64,000 nt of DNA, taken from IMG/VR virus record IMGVR_UViG_3300021420_000021, positions 30,267 through 94,266 of that record; one strand, written 5' to 3'. The position numbers were made by a program, and so were the translations under genes. Position 1 is the first letter of the stretch; each line of letters opens with the position of its first letter. The notes beneath the pieces were generated by a model. That model was given only the letters and a program-made list of their open reading frames with translations, was not told the DNA's origin and did no database searches. Origin of the DNA: a virus. Of this stretch, positions 1 to 25,132 are shown piece after piece.

Positions 1-106
1 CGACAATTTGGAAGACCTTGTAAAGAACTTATGATACAGTCCGATCTCATGGGCGACCATGAGTGCGATTCTAGTGGAAACTAGAAATCCTAAACAATAA
101 TACCAG
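1..106 (+). ncRNA. 3' end of a putative group I intron
   Basis: All three forward frames are closed by stops in this stretch, while the capsid-like reading frame opens just after it. Visible elements: a P7-like segment TGATACAGTCC (32-42), resembling the conserved AAGATATAGTCC of phage group I introns; a perfect 7-bp hairpin 46-52/57-63 capped by the GNRA tetraloop GCGA; and a second perfect 7-bp hairpin 69-75/80-86 capped by GGAA. GNRA-capped P9-type hairpins after P7 are usual in group I introns. The 3' splice site should follow a G; 106, 109, 110, 115 and 120 are candidates. The 5' part lies outside the window, so the class is inferred. Confidence 0.5.
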
Positions 107-120
107 TTGGACAAGCTAAG

Positions 121-498
121 ATGGACGAACTCGTCTCGGTCGATTTGACCGAAGTTATCGAGTTGCCGTCTAGCGGAGTGCAATTCTTTCAGACTAACCT
201 AGTCACTCAAAGTAACAATTACAAGTCTGTTGCTGGACTTGTAGGTCTTCGGACTTACATTTTTGGCAGAGACGGCGTATTTGCTATCAATCTAGGTGCA
301 AAAGGCGACACTGGCTATGGTGATGGCGAGTGGCGGAATATAGAATGCAATATTATGCAGAACGTTGCACCGACCGTCGCGGACCCCGAAGGCCTCATAC
401 CGGGATGGACTTCTTACAGAGTTCATTTCACCACGAGCCTCGGACCCGATACTACGATTCGGCAGAGACAAATTGATGCCGCTTCAGCCATAAGCTAA
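121..498 (+). CDS. Major capsid-like protein, C-terminal exon (partial)
   Basis: 125 codons remain from the first ATG; the true exon probably begins at 107-121 after the intron-like element. The pattern YIFGRDGVFAINLG, then DPEGLIPGW, then a terminal TTIRQRQIDA resembles the end of N4-gp56-type coat proteins (a GxxAfgvvxl strand, a DPLxQrxxxGWK segment, a final beta strand). No SD precedes ATG 121, which supports its being an exon and not a gene start. It heads the virion gene block, where a capsid gene is expected. The capsid assignment rests on pattern recall only. Confidence 0.45.
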   Translation: MDELVSVDLTEVIELPSSGVQFFQTNLVTQSNNYKSVAGLVGLRTYIFGRDGVFAINLGAKGDTGYGDGEWRNIECNIMQNVAPTVADPEGLIPGWTSYRVHFTTSLGPDTTIRQRQIDAASAIS

Positions 499-522: not shown

Positions 523-551
523 TTGACTTGTTTGATGTTGTGTGGTAAAGT
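523..551 (+). promoter_or_regulatory. Sigma70-like promoter for the endonuclease VII gene
   Basis: TTGACT (523-528), 17-bp spacer, TAAAGT (546-551). Transcription would start near 558, so the transcript would begin with the structured leader at 575-625. The same -10 hexamer and spacing recur at 24955-24983. Confidence 0.6.
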
Positions 552-574: not shown

Positions 575-625
575 GGGTAGGGTGCCGCAATCACCTTACC
601 CTGATTCGATAGCTCTATTGCGGAG
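575..625 (+). promoter_or_regulatory. SD-sequestering hairpin/pseudoknot leader
   Basis: Stem 575-584 (GGGTAGGGTG) pairs with 592-601 (CACCTTACCC), one G-U. The 7-nt loop 585-591 (CCGCAAT) is fully complementary to 617-623 (ATTGCGG), whose last bases are the first part of the SD of the gene starting at 636. Pairing would hide the ribosome-binding site. The architecture matches the leader at 4694-4735, with different bases in both helices. Confidence 0.6.
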
Positions 626-635
626 AGAAAATAAC

Positions 636-1220
636 ATGTTTGAAAAAGGCAATACTTTTAGTCAAGGCCGAAAAATTGGTTCGCACAGTGAACAAGAAAT
701 TCAAGCTTTAAAAGAACGCAATGCCGCCCGAAAGGGTCAACCTATCACATCTGAGAAAATGTTAGCCGCTTCGCGAGCGGGGTGCAAAGCAATGAACGCT
801 GTTAGGCACTTAAAAGCAGGCCATATTTTAGAAAATGTTGATTCTGTCGCCCTTACAGGTGATTGTCACATTTGTGGTCAAGTGCCGATTAAGGTAATGA
901 AGCATAGAGCGAATGGCGCTTTACGCGATCAATATTTATGTTGGGTTGGAACTCGTTGCAGAGAGACAGACGGAGCACCTGCCAAAGTCGCGTATAAGAA
1001 TCAAGCATTAGAGATGTGGAACAATCAACATGGCAATTGTGCTTTGTGTTACAAATACATGGTTCGCGCAGGAAACACCAACGAAGGTGCAACGTTAGAT
1101 CATTGTCACACGACCGGATTTATACGCGGCTTTATTCATCAAGGCTGCAATAAAGGTTTGGGTCACTTTTTAGACGACCCTGAAGTTTTAAAAATGGCTG
1201 CTGAGTATTTACTTAGATAG
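636..1220 (+). CDS. Endonuclease VII-type HNH endonuclease, probably homing
   Basis: 194 residues from ATG 636, preceded by GGAGAGAA; an upstream in-frame GTG (582) lies inside the leader hairpin and is unlikely. The C-terminal half has paired cysteines (CHICG; CALC) and the recombination endonuclease VII signature LDHCHTTGFIRGFIH followed by CNKGLG and a short helix (LKMAAEYL). The His-His-Asn set is the betabetaalpha-metal catalytic site and the Cys pairs bind structural zinc. It would cut DNA, most likely as a free-standing homing enzyme, since it sits just downstream of an intron-split gene and has its own promoter and repressive leader. A Holliday-junction role is possible but less likely. 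Confidence 0.8.
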   Translation: MFEKGNTFSQGRKIGSHSEQEIQALKERNAARKGQPITSEKMLAASRAGCKAMNAVRHLKAGHILENVDSVALTGDCHICGQVPIKVMKHRANGALRDQYLCWVGTRCRETDGAPAKVAYKNQALEMWNNQHGNCALCYKYMVRAGNTNEGATLDHCHTTGFIRGFIHQGCNKGLGHFLDDPEVLKMAAEYLLR

Positions 1221-1240: not shown

Positions 1241-2464
1241 ATGCCTATCCCCGCACAAACAACGGGTCTTGGAACCGCCGTCGCAGTCACGTTGGCGGGA
1301 ACTGGAGTCATACAGGAAAAGACACCTGTTGCTGGAACTCAAGGAATTTCGCACTACAATGTAACTCTGTCTTTGTCCGGGACCGGATTTCCGAGCACTG
1401 TCGCGGTCAGTGCTTCGACCATTGACGTTGCTGGAAACGTCGTTAGTAATGGCGGCGCTTCAGGATCGACGCAATTGGGCGCAGCCGCCGCAGCTTATGC
1501 TATTCTTGCCGCTGCTGGAATTACTAATACTGGCGCGACTGTCATTTCTGGCGGAAATATCGGTTCGTATCCGACTGCAACTGAAACCGGATTTACCGGG
1601 GCAAATTTTGTTCCTCCGGCGACGACTGATAACGCTGATGCACAAGCAGGACTCGCCGCCGCTTTGGTAACATATAACGCGCTATCGGCTTTGACTTTTA
1701 CGTCTTTGTCCGCGTCTTCGGCCAATTTAAGCACTCTTGGTAACGGAAGTACAGCTTCGACTTATACCGCAGGTAATTATTCTGCTGGCACAAGTATGGA
1801 CATTCCGACGAGTATTACTCTTGACGCGCAAGGTAATCCCGGCGCGGTATTTATATTTAAAGCCGGATCGACACTGACTCTCGAATCTAACGCGTCTGTT
1901 CTTCTTGTCAACGGCGCTCAAGCCGCGAACGTTTATTGGCTGGTCGGTAGTTCATTTACTTCGATCTTTGGAACTGTGTCCGTCATGAACGGAAATATTC
2001 TTGCCAATACAAGTATTACTCTTGGCGGTGGCGTCCTGAATGGCCGAGCGCTCGCCGGAATTGTGACTTCATCTGGCGCAGTTACAATTGCGACTGCCGA
2101 AGCAATTACAGTTCCCGGATTTTCGCAAAGCACAGCTTCAGGAATGAACGCAGTTAGTTATAATGCATGGCCGCGTTTGGTTGGCGGCGTTACACAGACT
2201 CGCGATGGTGTGACTCGTAATGCGCAAGATGTCACTGTTTCTTATCCGGCTCCGACTTCAGGTCCGGGCGGCGTTGCTGATGTGTCAGATGTCAATAATC
2301 CATTCCTTGTTACCGCGTATCGTGTCGGTCAAGCGTGGGTCGAATTCTTTTCTCCAACTTTCGGAAATTCCGAACCATTGGCGACAGATATTGAGTCGAA
2401 TTTGACCGAAGGTTTTCCGACCGATAAGATACAGGCCCAACTTTTAGTAAACGTCGTGAAGTAG
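1241..2464 (+). CDS. Virion Ig-like protein carrying an ice-binding-like (DUF3494) domain
   Basis: 407 residues. Residues 1-~75 and ~293-407 match in pattern the two following genes (TGV..., DVAGN, and a closing strand before VNVVK), so they form one Ig/BIG2-like unit. Residues ~79-292 form a complete DUF3494 (ice-binding protein-like, PF11999) domain: AGITNTG at the N-terminus, IFKAGSTL, NVYWLVG and ILANTSITLGGGVLNGRALAG at the C-terminus. DUF3494 proteins fold as a beta solenoid with a long helix and are best known as antifreeze or adhesion proteins. Inside a virion gene block it is most likely displayed on the capsid or tail surface. Ice binding itself is not shown; the domain could bind surfaces or glycans. 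Confidence 0.85.
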   Translation: MPIPAQTTGLGTAVAVTLAGTGVIQEKTPVAGTQGISHYNVTLSLSGTGFPSTVAVSASTIDVAGNVVSNGGASGSTQLGAAAAAYAILAAAGITNTGATVISGGNIGSYPTATETGFTGANFVPPATTDNADAQAGLAAALVTYNALSALTFTSLSASSANLSTLGNGSTASTYTAGNYSAGTSMDIPTSITLDAQGNPGAVFIFKAGSTLTLESNASVLLVNGAQAANVYWLVGSSFTSIFGTVSVMNGNILANTSITLGGGVLNGRALAGIVTSSGAVTIATAEAITVPGFSQSTASGMNAVSYNAWPRLVGGVTQTRDGVTRNAQDVTVSYPAPTSGPGGVADVSDVNNPFLVTAYRVGQAWVEFFSPTFGNSEPLATDIESNLTEGFPTDKIQAQLLVNVVK

Positions 2465-3059: not shown

Positions 3060-3647
3060 ATGCCGCCTCTTTTTCCAAGTTCGCAGAACAGCTTAAATTA
3101 TACAACGGGCGTAGGAATTCCGGCCCGAGTTGCCCTTAGTGGGACCGCAGCCGGAGGTAATAGTGTGACACAGCAACAGTCCGCCACGATTGACGGAACT
3201 TCGTATGTTGTTCTTCAAATGCGTGGTCCTGAATACTATCTTCTGATGACTTTGCCGTCTGATACGTGTCAATTGAGTGCCGGGATTGTAGATGTCGCTG
3301 GCAATGCGAGCACGGTTGATGCGAGTAATACGTTTACTTATACATCGTGGAACGCGAGTTCGGTCGTATTATCGATGTCGAATACTGGAAGTGCATCAGG
3401 ATCGGAGTTCGTATCTTTTTCTGCCGCAAATATGGGTACAGGCTGGATGCCTTCGAATCTGGCATGGGAAAGTAAAGTTGTAACTATCTCTTCGTCTGGT
3501 TTGATTACTGCGAACGCAAAAGGCCATGCGGTAGTGGAGTGTCGCTACCCCTTAAGTAAAGCATCGAACAATCCCGTTACGAATGGTTTAAATACGACAG
3601 ACAACCCACAATTTATTGCGGCATTGCTTGTAATTCGAGTCAATTAA
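3060..3647 (+). CDS. Ig-like virion/decoration protein
   Basis: 195 residues, SD GAAAGG. Third member of the tandem family; the stretch VVTISSSGLITANAKGHAVV is a recognisable BIG2-like strand pair (value, then 'always changing' strand). The C-terminus IAALLVIRVN aligns in pattern with the ends of the two preceding proteins. Likely exposed on the virion; function inferred from position only. Confidence 0.6.
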   Translation: MPPLFPSSQNSLNYTTGVGIPARVALSGTAAGGNSVTQQQSATIDGTSYVVLQMRGPEYYLLMTLPSDTCQLSAGIVDVAGNASTVDASNTFTYTSWNASSVVLSMSNTGSASGSEFVSFSAANMGTGWMPSNLAWESKVVTISSSGLITANAKGHAVVECRYPLSKASNNPVTNGLNTTDNPQFIAALLVIRVN

Positions 3648-4191: not shown

Positions 4192-4667
4192 AGTTACTAA
4201 ACCGTATTAGAACTTGGTTGCTTTATAAGTTATGGAAGCCAAAGGATAAATCACCCGAAGAACTAGAGTTTGCGAGAGAAAAAGGTAAGATTTTAACTCA
4301 GCAAAAACAATGGGATGATCAAAGACATGTCGGATGTTCACACCTTAAAGGCGGGAATGTAGGGAACGTGTTTGGCGGCGATTTCAGTAAGTTTGCCCAA
4401 GGTTGGTATAACGGACAAAATGGGCAATACGCAGTAATCAAGCATCAGATGGCGAATGGCGATATTTATGTAAACTGTTTACGATGCGGTAAGAAGTGGA
4501 AAAAGCCAATAAGATCGTCATTTAAGAAAGAACAAGATTACTTAATAGCTCTTGCAGAGTACGAAACTGCTGTGAAGTTTCCTACGAATAATAGCATGTC
4601 TACATCGATTCAATTACGATTTTCTGACAATGGCGAAGCGCATCGTAAAGCGATAGAGAATAGTTAA
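4188..4667 (+). CDS. Zinc-ribbon-like phage protein, paralogue of 5936-6577
   Basis: 159 residues, strong SD (GGAGGAGG). An N-terminal basic helix (MKLLNRIRTWLLYKLW) may touch membrane or nucleic acid. The core has CSHLKGG, YAVIKHQMANGDIYVNC and CLRCGKKW, i.e. a Cys-x-His plus Cys-x2-Cys set that could bind one zinc, then a TNNSMSTSIQLRF segment. The same core, with the same spacing, is in the gene at 5936, so the two arose by duplication; an HNH gene and another gene now separate them. Function unknown. Confidence 0.6.
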   Translation: MKLLNRIRTWLLYKLWKPKDKSPEELEFAREKGKILTQQKQWDDQRHVGCSHLKGGNVGNVFGGDFSKFAQGWYNGQNGQYAVIKHQMANGDIYVNCLRCGKKWKKPIRSSFKKEQDYLIALAEYETAVKFPTNNSMSTSIQLRFSDNGEAHRKAIENS

Positions 4668-4693
4668 ATTTCGCAGTGTCATGAACTGTGAAC

Positions 4694-4735
4694 GGGCGAT
4701 AGCCTTCTACTATCGCCCACTCTTTAGAAGGGAGA
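4694..4735 (+). promoter_or_regulatory. SD-sequestering hairpin/pseudoknot leader (second copy)
   Basis: A perfect 9-bp stem GGGCGATAG (4694-4702)/CTATCGCCC (4710-4718) encloses the 7-nt loop CCTTCTA (4703-4709), which is fully complementary to TAGAAGG (4725-4731). That segment runs into the SD of the HNH gene starting at 4741. It shares the layout of 575-625 and the flank GGAGAGAA, while both helices differ in sequence. Confidence 0.6.
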
Positions 4736-4740
4736 GAAGT

Positions 4741-5280
4741 ATGCGAATTGAAACAAACATAAGAAGCATTAAAGATTTATCCAACATGAAATTTGGTAGA
4801 TTGATACCGATTATGCCTATTGCAAAAGATAGGTTTAATAAGACGATATGGCTAATGTTGTGCGATTGCGGCAAGACAAAAGCTATAAACAGCGCAAATT
4901 TGAGTTCAAAACATACTCAGAGTTGCGGGTGTTTACGCGATGAGTGTCAGTCTGCGCTTAAACATGGTGCTAGTTGTCGCGGTAAGATAACGCCTGAGTA
5001 TCAAGCTTTTAGAGCGGCGAAAGAACGCTGTACTAACCCAAAGAATAAAGCATATAAATATTATGGCGGAAGAGGAATCGAGTTTCGTTTTGTTAGTTTT
5101 GAAGAGTTTTTTGCGGAGATAGGTTTACGACCCGACGCGATGTCGCTAGATAGGATTGAGGTAAACGGGCATTATGAAAAAGGGAATGTTCGTTGGGCGA
5201 CTCAAAGTCAGCAAGTACAAAATCGTAGATCACAGCCTGAAATTCTTTTACAGTATGCGGCAGCATTAGGAGGAGTGTGA
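4741..5280 (+). CDS. HNH-type homing endonuclease
   Basis: 179 residues from ATG 4741, chosen because AGAAGGGAGAG sits at the right distance; the upstream ATG 4681 would translate the hairpin. An N-terminal zinc-ribbon-like part (CDCGK, CGCLRDEC) precedes the phage HNH-like signature: YYGGRGIEF, then LDRIEVNGHYEKGNVRWAT and Q..NRR. These are the DxxxxxGHY.xxNxRW residues of the fold shared by many mobile phage endonucleases. It separates the two zinc-ribbon paralogues at 4188 and 5936, as expected for an inserted homing gene. Its stop overlaps the next GTG. Confidence 0.8.
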   Translation: MRIETNIRSIKDLSNMKFGRLIPIMPIAKDRFNKTIWLMLCDCGKTKAINSANLSSKHTQSCGCLRDECQSALKHGASCRGKITPEYQAFRAAKERCTNPKNKAYKYYGGRGIEFRFVSFEEFFAEIGLRPDAMSLDRIEVNGHYEKGNVRWATQSQQVQNRRSQPEILLQYAAALGGV

Positions 5281-6687: not shown

Positions 6688-7773
6688 ATGGCAACTTCAA
6701 ACAGCACTCTGACCTTGCAAGAATTAGTGGACGACTGTAAATCAATGGCCGATCTTGCGCCCGCGTTAGCGACAGGCGGATATTCTGATCAACCCGCGCT
6801 TTCAATCGCCAATGACGTGATGCAGAATATGGTCGCGGGCGGGCCTGAAGGTCAGCCGTTTAACTGGAAATGGAATCGCATGGTCGAGACTCCATTTTTC
6901 ATTAATTCGTGGCAGCAAGATTATTTCATCCCGAACCTTGTTACACTTGGATGGCTTGAAAGTTGCACCGCATCTTGTTTCTCTACGACACAATTTCCCA
7001 AGCCGATTTTACCGATTGAAGTAAAACGAGACTTGTTGATCGTTAGTTTACAGACTTCGCAAACTGCGAAGATTTGCTGGATGCAAAATGACACTATGTT
7101 GGCAGGAACTTGGGGGCAAACAGAACAAGCTTCAGCAACAGGATTGGCGAATCCGGGTCCGGGCGTTGTTATCACGAATCCGGCAAATCAGCCGTCAATG
7201 CCGATCAATCCTACGACACAGGTGAAAGACGCTTTTGGCAATTTGTGGGTTGTGACGACTTACGGGACTTGCGGCAGTTCGAATCCATTTGCGACGAATC
7301 TTAATCCAGCATTTCCGACATTGCAGAATCAAAGCATTGTATCGACTACAGTAAACGATGGAACTGTTGTTTGGACCGCAGTTAATCCGAAAGGTCAAGG
7401 ATTTCGAATCAATCCACTTCCCGGCCAAACCGGGCCAGTTTGGTTAATTCAACCAGTCGGCCAGAACCGAGTTCAAAGACTGACGAGTTACGGACAATTT
7501 CTTGATCCGATTCCAGATGATTTTTATACATTTTTCAAACAAGGATTTTTCGCCCAATGTTATCGCCGTTCGCCCGATCCAAAAGTCCGGGCGAAGTTCG
7601 AAATGGAATATCAGCTATGGCAAAAAGCATTAGTCAATGCCGTCAGACAAGGCGCACGAGAAATCGATGATTGGGGCTTTTATCCAACATCGAATGTCAT
7701 GGATGGAACTGGATACGGAGGTTGGGTTGGTGCAACGCCCGCACTACCGTATGGCCCCTGGCAAGGTTATTAG
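6688..7773 (+). CDS. Neck/adaptor (tail tubular A-like) virion protein
   Basis: 361 residues, start 19 bp after the terminator. It is paralogous in layout to 7972-8940: an N-terminal helical part (LQELVDDCKSMADL... ANDVMQNM), a beta-rich insert, and a C-terminal helical part (DFYTFFKQGFFAQCYRRS... FEMEYQLWQKAL). This helix-beta-helix layout and position after the capsid gene fit the head-tail adaptor/tail tubular protein A class of podoviruses. The middle segment (NPATQVKDAFGNLW, then VNDGTVVWTAV) resembles a repeated carbohydrate-binding-like insert also seen in the nozzle gene. Assignment by context. Confidence 0.5.
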   Translation: MATSNSTLTLQELVDDCKSMADLAPALATGGYSDQPALSIANDVMQNMVAGGPEGQPFNWKWNRMVETPFFINSWQQDYFIPNLVTLGWLESCTASCFSTTQFPKPILPIEVKRDLLIVSLQTSQTAKICWMQNDTMLAGTWGQTEQASATGLANPGPGVVITNPANQPSMPINPTTQVKDAFGNLWVVTTYGTCGSSNPFATNLNPAFPTLQNQSIVSTTVNDGTVVWTAVNPKGQGFRINPLPGQTGPVWLIQPVGQNRVQRLTSYGQFLDPIPDDFYTFFKQGFFAQCYRRSPDPKVRAKFEMEYQLWQKALVNAVRQGAREIDDWGFYPTSNVMDGTGYGGWVGATPALPYGPWQGY

Positions 7774-7805
7774 AATCAATAATTTACAGACAATTTCACT
7801 ATATT

Positions 7806-8030
7806 GTGTACAAAGATGTTGATCATGAGCATGAGAAACCCGGCACGCATCGTGGCATTCTTTGCGCATGGTGTAACACAGCACTCGGCAGATTAGAGCC
7901 GAATATGCAGAAAGTCTTAGAATATCTGGCCGAGTATGGAAAATACTACGAGCCTCCGCTAAAGGATTTAAATGCCCGCTTTGAGCACAATTACGCTAGA
8001 AATGACGATGGATTGGGCGAAACGCCTTAG
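7806..8030 (+). pseudogene. Truncated endonuclease VII-type gene remnant
   Basis: From GTG 7806 the frame encodes DHEHEKPGTHRGILCAWCN and LGRLEP, the second half of the endonuclease VII signature, followed by the usual short helix. The first zinc-binding Cys pair and the N-terminal half are missing, and no SD precedes it. The frame then runs 59 bp into the next virion gene. It looks like the eroded 3' end of a former homing gene between two neck genes; a short functional protein is less likely. Confidence 0.55.
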
Positions 8031-9262: not shown

Positions 9263-10447
9263 ATGTCAGCACCAACTAAGGTCCAGCTTATCGGCGGACA
9301 TTTTCAAGACCTTTCCGGAAATGTTTTAGCAAATGGTTATCTTCGGATGTTTCTTAGTTCTGATGAATTGGTAACAGGGGTCGGCTTTATTTGCAGCGGT
9401 GTTTTTGTACAAATACAATTAGATTCTGCGGGAAGTGTTGCAAGTTCAACAAGCACGCCGCCTGCTGCAAATCAGTTTGTTTGGGGCAATGATCAAATGG
9501 CCCCGACTAATAGTTATTATCGTGTTTTTGGCTATGCCGCAAGCGGGCAACTTGCTTTCGGCCCCGATAATCAGCAAGTTATCGGCAATGGCGGAACGTT
9601 CGATGTCGGTACTTGGATACCAAATTCTGTCATAAGTTGGCAACCGCCGATTCAGCCGTTAACACTTGAAGTAAACAGTGTATTAGCTGGATCACAAACG
9701 CTATTGAATCTTAACGCAGGATCAGGAATAACTTTGACCGATAATGGATCGGGTCAAGTTACTGTCGCATCTAGTCTCGCAGCGCTATTATTAGAAACGA
9801 ACGGAACGCCGAATACATCGCAGACATTATTGAATTTAGCCGCAGGTACAGGTATTACGATTACAAATCCTAGCGGCGGTGAAGTTTTGATTTCGTCTAC
9901 TACATCTGGATCACCTTCCGGATCGAATGTAATATTTATCGATGAAGCACAAAAAAATGCAGGTTCCGGATTTAATGGCGCAGCTACTGATTGTATTATT
10001 GTTCGAGTTCCTGCTAGTTCTGTAGCCGCAATAGGTAGTAAAGTCATAGTTACGATCAATTTTTCTGCGCTCGGATCAAGTTCAATAAAGATGACTCCTG
10101 TATTACGACGGACTCTTCCGGGCGGAACAGCTTTTACCGATACGACTGCAATTACATTTGGTGGCAGCGCTACGCCTACTTTTACAGGAAGTACTTTAAC
10201 GTATACATCAGACGATGTTTCTTGTACTATCGATAGTGCCCATGATAATTATTTCATATTTAATGAAACAACTGTGACAGGTACGCCCGCCTACTATACT
10301 TTTGTAGAAAATTATATTACTAAATGTAGCGGAGAAGTAACTAACGGCGTGAATTATTCTACCGTGTCATCGATACCGAGTTTACCGACTTTGCTCAGTT
10401 TGTTGTCTACACAAAGTACTCTTGTTTCAAGTATCGTAATTGGATAA
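9263..10447 (+). CDS. Tail fibre-like virion protein
   Basis: 394 residues. Residues ~1-125 repeat the domain of the preceding protein (GGHFQDLSGNVLANGYLRM; VWGNDQMAP). Then come two related segments, LNAGSGITLTDNGSGQVTV and LAAGTGITITNPSGGEVLI, the short beta repeats found in trimeric phage fibre shafts. The C-terminal ~180 residues are beta-rich with no catalytic motif. Probably a fibre or appendage next to the tail nozzle. Confidence 0.55.
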   Translation: MSAPTKVQLIGGHFQDLSGNVLANGYLRMFLSSDELVTGVGFICSGVFVQIQLDSAGSVASSTSTPPAANQFVWGNDQMAPTNSYYRVFGYAASGQLAFGPDNQQVIGNGGTFDVGTWIPNSVISWQPPIQPLTLEVNSVLAGSQTLLNLNAGSGITLTDNGSGQVTVASSLAALLLETNGTPNTSQTLLNLAAGTGITITNPSGGEVLISSTTSGSPSGSNVIFIDEAQKNAGSGFNGAATDCIIVRVPASSVAAIGSKVIVTINFSALGSSSIKMTPVLRRTLPGGTAFTDTTAITFGGSATPTFTGSTLTYTSDDVSCTIDSAHDNYFIFNETTVTGTPAYYTFVENYITKCSGEVTNGVNYSTVSSIPSLPTLLSLLSTQSTLVSSIVIG

Positions 10448-24989: not shown

Positions 24990-25113
24990 TGGTGTGCTGC
25001 CGAGCCATTGCGCAAATCGAGCAGAGGCGCGGGTGGTGCCTAGGCGTGAGCCGGAACCACCACAATTTTACTTTGTATAACGGAAACTCAGAGCCTAAAG
25101 CTTTGGGTTTCCG
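24990..25113 (+). promoter_or_regulatory. Structured leader RNA before the hydrolase gene
   Basis: The leader holds GGTGGT (25032-25037) pairing with ACCACC (25056-25061), and a contiguous 14-bp hairpin 25081-25094/25100-25113 with loop CTAAA. The SD AGGAGGATT follows 10 nt later. No poly-T follows the hairpin, so it is not a standard terminator. It could control translation or protect the mRNA. Confidence 0.5.
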
Positions 25114-25132
25114 GACCAATTTAGGAGGATTT

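Follow-up and report, generated by a model that had tools for sequence, protein, structure and literature searches.

What does a structured leader do in front of a phage endonuclease gene, and how far does its layout extend beyond one gene? These questions are raised by the window, i.e. the whole 64,000-nucleotide stretch of DNA analyzed here, which corresponds to positions 30267-94266 of a 94,266-bp virus record. In this window, all on the + strand, gene 1 (636..1220), directly behind the capsid gene, encodes an endonuclease VII-type protein (Pfam Endonuclease_7, E 5e-16), and gene 2 (4741..5280) encodes an HNH-type endonuclease (phrog_374, E 2e-49) of a family unrelated to that of gene 1. 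Both genes are preceded by a leader of the same architecture.

Two leaders with complementary hairpin loops

Leader 1 contains a first hairpin, P1, with a 10-bp stem including one G-U pair (GGGTAGGGTG at 575-584 with CACCTTACCC at 592-601) and the 7-nt loop CCGCAAT (L1, 585-591). After an 11-nt linker follows a second hairpin, P2 (CTCT at 613-616 with AGAG at 624-627), whose loop ATTGCGG (617-623) is the reverse complement of L1. The SD is GGAG at 622-625 and the start codon is the ATG at 636. Leader 2 has a 9-bp P1 (GGGCGATAG at 4694-4702 with CTATCGCCC at 4710-4718, L1 CCTTCTA at 4703-4709), followed by a P2 (CTCTT at 4720-4724 with GAGAG at 4732-4736) that flanks the complement of L1 (TAGAAGG, 4725-4731), by the SD GGGAG (4730-4734) and by the ATG at 4741. 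It also has a further hairpin, P0, just 5' of P1 (4670..4692, TTCGCAG with CTGTGAA), with the 9-nt loop TG-TCATGA-A containing a palindrome at 4679-4684; a clear P0 was not found in leader 1. In both leaders, all seven nucleotides of the P1 loop can pair with a stretch whose end falls in the SD. This stretch is exactly the loop of P2, and the SD is split between the end of that loop and the 3' strand of P2. Ten resampled 64-kb windows contained no stem of at least 9 bp with such a 7-nt loop match.

The initial annotation had described the two P1 hairpins and the loop complements at the SD exactly as we find them. It had overlooked P2, however, the second hairpin whose loop the complementary stretch forms. 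Of the two flanks it had considered shared, GGAGAGAA consists of the SD together with P2's 3' strand, and TAAATTTCG is not homologous: it lies at 562-570 (13 nt before P1) in one case and at 4665-4673 (29 nt before P1) in the other. We give the latter no weight because of these different distances and because the copy at leader 2 contains the TAA stop of the upstream gene. The promoter it had placed upstream of leader 1 corresponds to a fair, sigma-70-like match (TTGACT-17-TAAAGT, with TG before the second hexamer; 523..551, + strand, by consensus only) that ends 24 nt before the leader. A promoter-like sequence was also looked for before leader 2, and none was found.

A third copy lies outside the window in the same 94-kb genome (L033, 327-346, complement from 354) and precedes a GIY-YIG/NUMOD3-type endonuclease gene. 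All three copies have + orientation, and two of them lie close to the capsid gene; related endonuclease ORFs on the other strand have no leader. This distribution would suit a brake on genes residing in strong late operons. A further candidate at 25081-25119 of the window was lost once P2 was required; the protein that follows it has no family match, and we took it as chance.

The surroundings offer several observations of their own. The major capsid gene is split (L034:1819-3765, i.e. G000:C1:28818-30764; window 1-498): an exon 1 of 219 aa is followed by a ∼0.9-kb insert with a LAGLIDADG ORF (L034 2551-3351) and by exon 2 at window 121-498. The insert looks like an intron; no group I or II intron match was found in it with Rfam. 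The product of window 1241-2464, adjoining the capsid gene, has an ice-binding-like domain (Pfam PF11999, E 4e-35), and the phage is related to an Arctic-soil phage. Window 7671-8030 contains a leaderless C-terminal remnant of an endonuclease VII gene (profile positions 41-81 only), which may stem from the decay of a homing gene.

A recurrent leader whose sequence changes

By strict criteria (P1 of at least 7 bp, a loop complementary over its whole length, P2, SD, and start codon), IMG/VR phage contigs contain 116 distinct copies in 79 loci, counts that are inflated by shared ancestry. Two or more copies are present in 27 loci, with a maximum of five in 11 kb. L1 is 7 nt long in 87 copies, 6 nt in 28 and 8 nt in one, P1 has 7-14 bp and P2 3-7 bp, and the P2 stem is flush with its loop in 109 of the 116; the leaders extend over about 50-80 nt. 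Since the catalogue was selected for P1, P2, and loop pairing, it is the range of pair types, not the percentage paired, that counts as evidence. This range is wide. The loops occur in 63 different sequences beginning with CC or CT, P1, closed mostly by GTG/CAC, shows four to six pair types at positions 2-7, and P2 stems change wholesale (CTCT/AGAG, TTCA/TGAA, TCAC/GTGA, ACCC/GGGT, GTCC/GGAC). The helices thus keep pairing while their sequence changes, as had been proposed from the two leaders of the window, and the suggested check for further covarying examples before other endonuclease genes returned all the strict copies plus variants.

At an early stage, 33 strict copies were found against none in one Markov-resampled control of equal size. 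To avoid selecting for complementarity, we also searched IMG/VR with patterns in which some bases of the loops were left unspecified. The pattern GTGCCTNNNNCAC-N4-18-TCTNNNNAGGAGA gave 61 distinct matches, 60 of which were complementary at all four free pairs (mean 3.9, maximum 11 when partners were shuffled in 1000 trials). The next four outward pairs of P1, likewise free, were all formed in 55 of the 61 (shuffle mean 9.6, maximum 18). With a CT-type pattern, all five free pairs were formed in 11 of 29 matches, the others having 0-3 (shuffle mean 1.1, maximum 5), and the seven matches to a long-linker pattern were all complementary at five of five free pairs. Because the loop pairing is not nested, such direct tests are stronger than an R-scape-style score or a covariance model.

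Nearly all copies precede endonuclease-like genes (endonuclease VII, GIY-YIG, HNH). Among 57 downstream proteins compared with Pfam and PHROGs, 26-27 are endonuclease VII, 10-11 GIY-YIG, and most of the rest HNH types; the remaining downstream ORFs were classed by motif and by eye, about five of them being truncated. The sole strict copy before a clear non-endonuclease is L316:2365-2417, which precedes the C-terminal part of a D5-type primase/helicase. The search patterns contain no gene information other than the SD, and still their complementary matches stand before endonuclease ORFs; this association is therefore largely unbiased. An earlier scan of the related loci had already brought about 25 further copies to light, again nearly all before endonuclease-like genes. 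Variant forms precede genes of still other types: in large phage contigs (152-467 kb), elements with a 4-bp P1 and 10-16-nt linkers are found, and those of L333, L386, L336, and L375 stand before DUF559/Vsr-like and DUF7487 endonucleases, some having an outer helix, as in L333, where GGGGCT/AGCCCC encloses P0 and P1. A further copy, in L421, precedes a PDDEXK_5 protein. The leader type is therefore common to about six unrelated endonuclease families; the two families of the window are indeed unrelated, as had been claimed, and the number is nearer six than two. The element is not essential: among the related endonuclease ORFs of the loci, the majority (179) have no such leader, against 138 that do. 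On one contig (L319), near-identical leader cores at 3559-3605 and 9650-9696 stand before two genes, one GIY-YIG and the other endonuclease-like but unrelated to it, which suggests that leaders have been swapped between endonuclease families.

A strict pattern gave one match in 84,980 bacterial and archaeal genomes, which is not an element, and Rfam 15, at gathering score or E ≤ 10, gave nothing relevant around the leaders, a single chance match lying inside coding sequence. The element was not found in stretches of four large-phage records, nor in Tunturiibacter phage Tunturi_3, an Acidobacteriota phage and isolated relative; no other phage isolate gave a close record. The search by capsid yielded 80 related contigs. 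In L005-L031, which carry relatives of the HNH protein of the window, no leader was found, including L005 at the same site behind the capsid gene.

In many copies P0 is present and, like P1 and P2, varies in its stem. Among 121 distinct P0-like hairpins, 33 of the 38 distinct 9-nt loops contain a 6-nt palindrome, against 2.4 expected, and nearly all of these loops are laid out as 2 nt, the palindrome, and 1 nt. The palindromes are TAATTA, TTATAA, and TCATGA in 9-nt loops, and TGATCA, TAGCTA, TTGCAA, and TTCGAA in loops of 7-8 nt, so that palindromy is kept, if not in every copy, across seven different hexamers. Its retention through symmetric double changes is what self-pairing of two molecules demands. 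In a sizeable minority, P0 is absent or non-palindromic, with the recurrent loops TTAGCG, GTTGCT, CATTA, and CTTGCTA.

In many cases, upstream sequence similarity ends 28-44 nt ahead of P1, immediately 5' of P0, but in many others it ends at the upstream stop codon, which makes these breakpoints ambiguous as cassette borders. Near-identical phages differ by deletions (L051 vs L055 and L055 vs L059, at L051:7800-8000 and L055:2950-3110) that have removed everything between a point within P1 and one close to the end of the endonuclease gene, with P0 remaining as a scar. Upstream of P1 in L227, L278, L349, and L356-L359, the sequence resembles a promoter (TTGACA-17-TAAGAT) with a spacer that forms an inverted repeat centered on TTGCAA; transcripts from this site would start near P1, without P0.

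A probable lock on translation, in cis or in trans

The leader very probably masks the SD and with it translation, acting as a lock on a homing-endonuclease-like gene that would travel between phages. The RNA is predicted to fold as two adjacent hairpins, P1 and P2, often with P0 ahead; the SD would lie in the loop and 3' strand of P2, and the whole 6-7-nt loop of P1 would pair with the whole loop of P2, clamping the SD shut. Computed folding energies have medians of -2.8 kcal/mol for P2 alone, -14.4 for P1, and -7.2 for the loop duplex. Because P2 alone is marginal and P1 is stable, the lock should depend on the loop contact. Fully paired loops of 6-7 nt are unusually stable, as in RNA I/RNA II and TAR/TAR*.

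Two readings differ in which P1 loop would close the SD. If P1, P2, and the loop helix all form within one molecule, the stem bases would lie at opposite ends of a ∼20-bp stack, too far apart for a linker of 0-3 nt. The linkers between P1 and P2 are bimodal, mostly 0-3 or 6-8 nt, and in several of the 6-8-nt copies (such as the leader-like L209 and L319) part of the linker can, by eye, pair with bases before P1, which shortens it. Nor do linkers lengthen with P1: longer P1 stems go with shorter bridges (r = -0.35), and in 21 of the 116 copies a P1 of at least 11 bp is bridged by at most 7 nt. The alternative would be reciprocal pairing, P1 of one mRNA with P2 of another and vice versa. In such a two-fold symmetric dimer, each P1 would stack through the loop helix on the P2 of the other molecule. 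The two resulting rods would lie next to each other, equally long whatever the length of P1, with short linkers connecting them. It is this fit of short linkers at any P1 length that, by geometrical reasoning, favors a dimer, and the palindromic P0 loop would provide its starting contact. We consider loop-loop pairing in trans, between two copies of the mRNA, to be evenly poised between true and false, on what the sequences offer. The near-identical leaders before two different genes on L319 would allow cross-dimers and thus count against it, as do the copies, leader 1 among them, in which a palindromic P0 is not evident.

The strongest competitor is pairing of the P1 loop with the SD stretch of the same molecule, in an H-type pseudoknot like those of the T4 gene 32 type, with P2 as an alternative or earlier fold. 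It is the simplest reading, it is sterically possible where a P1 of 7-8 bp is bridged by 6-8 nt, and loop-loop pairing in cis would suit the large-phage variants with a 4-bp P1 and long linkers; these copies, and leader 1 with its 11-nt linker, could pair in cis. We nevertheless regard it as rather unlikely. The long P1 stems on short bridges speak against it, as does the complete lack of unpaired loop nucleotides, and it leaves unexplained both the palindromic P0 loops and a P2 that covaries flush against the complementary loop. What stands of the loop-to-SD pseudoknot put forward by the initial annotation is accordingly the structured, SD-masking leader; its simple H-type cis form fits poorly with P2 around the complement, the short linkers, and the long P1.

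The hypervariability of the loops bears on another possibility, namely that P1 and P2 (and P0) form the binding site of a repressing protein, be it the endonuclease itself or an RNA-binding protein of phage or host, with loop pairing merely shaping the site. Autogenous control is common in phages, and several subgroups show sequence conservation in their non-palindromic P0 loops. Across about six unrelated endonuclease families and 63 versions of the loop, however, no common protein contact is evident, and we judge this improbable. An element acting at the level of DNA, i.e. a cruciform, operator, or insertion-site feature of a homing cassette that overlaps the SD secondarily, would account for the inverted repeats. 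It would also fit the palindromes (for example TTGTAGCTACAA) and the promoter-like sequences that lie shortly before several copies. It is a very improbable reading given that the element keeps a constant position with respect to SD and start codon, with the complementary strand ending at the GG or AG of the SD, that P2 stems are flush almost throughout, and that RNA-type pairs, G-U among them, persist through the sequence changes. Finally, an intrinsic terminator of the upstream gene with coincidental complementarity, for which a GC-rich, intergenic P1 might be cited, can be dismissed, as there is no T-tract, no terminator-like site was found at either leader, and the complementarity of 60 of 61 pattern matches refutes it.

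We therefore favor a translational lock that would be closed by an mRNA homodimer through reciprocal loop-loop pairing, and we give this explanation as a whole an even chance of being correct. If so, translation would fall as the mRNA grows abundant, for example when the gene sits on strong late structural-gene transcripts. More tentatively, and with a confidence somewhat below even, we propose that the homodimer, held by the palindromic loop and two reciprocal loop contacts that close the SD, senses abundance, so that a selfish endonuclease would silence itself. The dependence on mRNA concentration and the benefit to the element are what we infer here.

Comparison with known systems

The leaders, which occur in phages of soil and in giant phages, constitute a structured-RNA family without a match in Rfam 15, recognized by structure and not by sequence. 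Their occurrence in front of unrelated selfish endonucleases implies either exchange between these genes or strong common selection. If the favored explanation is true, about six unrelated endonuclease families would carry an RNA-only, concentration-gated translation switch, which would be, to our knowledge, the first case of bacterial or phage translation gated by mRNA-mRNA dimerization. So compact a loop-loop lock, for which any 6-7-nt loop ending on the SD would do, could serve as a designable expression limiter. In the openly accessible journal literature, no description of this architecture, or of its spread over about six families, was found.

Its parts have counterparts. The kissing complexes of ColE1 RNA I/RNA II and of TAR/TAR* likewise pair through loops of 6-7 nt that are complementary over their full length and leave no base single-stranded, but they join two different RNAs, whereas here both loops reside in one leader.

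The guanidine-II (mini-ykkC) riboswitch also controls bacterial mRNAs through two tandem hairpins with kissing loops, which are, however, conserved ACGR loops forming two base pairs, bind a ligand, and are separated by a 7-40-nt linker (PMC7357161). In the leaders described here, ACGR loops are not found in both hairpins; the loops are 6-7 nt long, fully paired, and hypervariable, the linker is mostly 0-8 nt, and there is no conserved pocket. The HIV-1 dimerization initiation site (DIS) resembles P0, whose commonest loop here is 2 + 6 + 1 nt, in being a stem and a loop with a 6-nt palindrome, but it serves the packaging of a retroviral genome and has a GC-rich palindrome with conserved purine flanks (PMC7357161). 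P0 palindromes are mostly AT-rich, have other flanks, and lie beside the SD in phage mRNA leaders, where a dimer is suggested by sequence. GOLLD, ROOL, and OLE are natural RNA-only homo-oligomers too, described as large and ornate RNAs (PMC12286853), in contrast to an mRNA leader of some 50-80 nt with putative oligomerization.

A close precedent is found in T4-type homing endonucleases (I-TevI, I-TevII, I-TevIII, segB, and Aeh1 mobE), which have hairpins that sequester the ribosome-binding site (RBS) (PMC2988022). There, too, the SD of the homing endonuclease gene, whether free-standing or intron-encoded, is concealed by a structured leader on polycistronic phage transcripts, and that these genes are kept down by RNA that hides the RBS makes low expression a known need of such genes (PMC2988022). 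The shared feature, an SD inside a helix upstream of an endonuclease gene of a homing-like family, as assigned with Pfam and PHROGs, is present here. In the T4-type leaders, the RBS is directly base-paired in a single hairpin, part of which is missing from late transcripts owing to the placement of the late promoters (PMC2988022). Such a single hairpin with an SD-freeing late promoter is not what we find, the promoter-like site of leader 1 being upstream of the whole element; instead, there are two hairpins with fully complementary loops, often a third, palindromic one, in many families and with changing sequence. Leaders that hide the SD of phage homing genes are thus already known; the dimer mechanism, if proven, would be new in kind.
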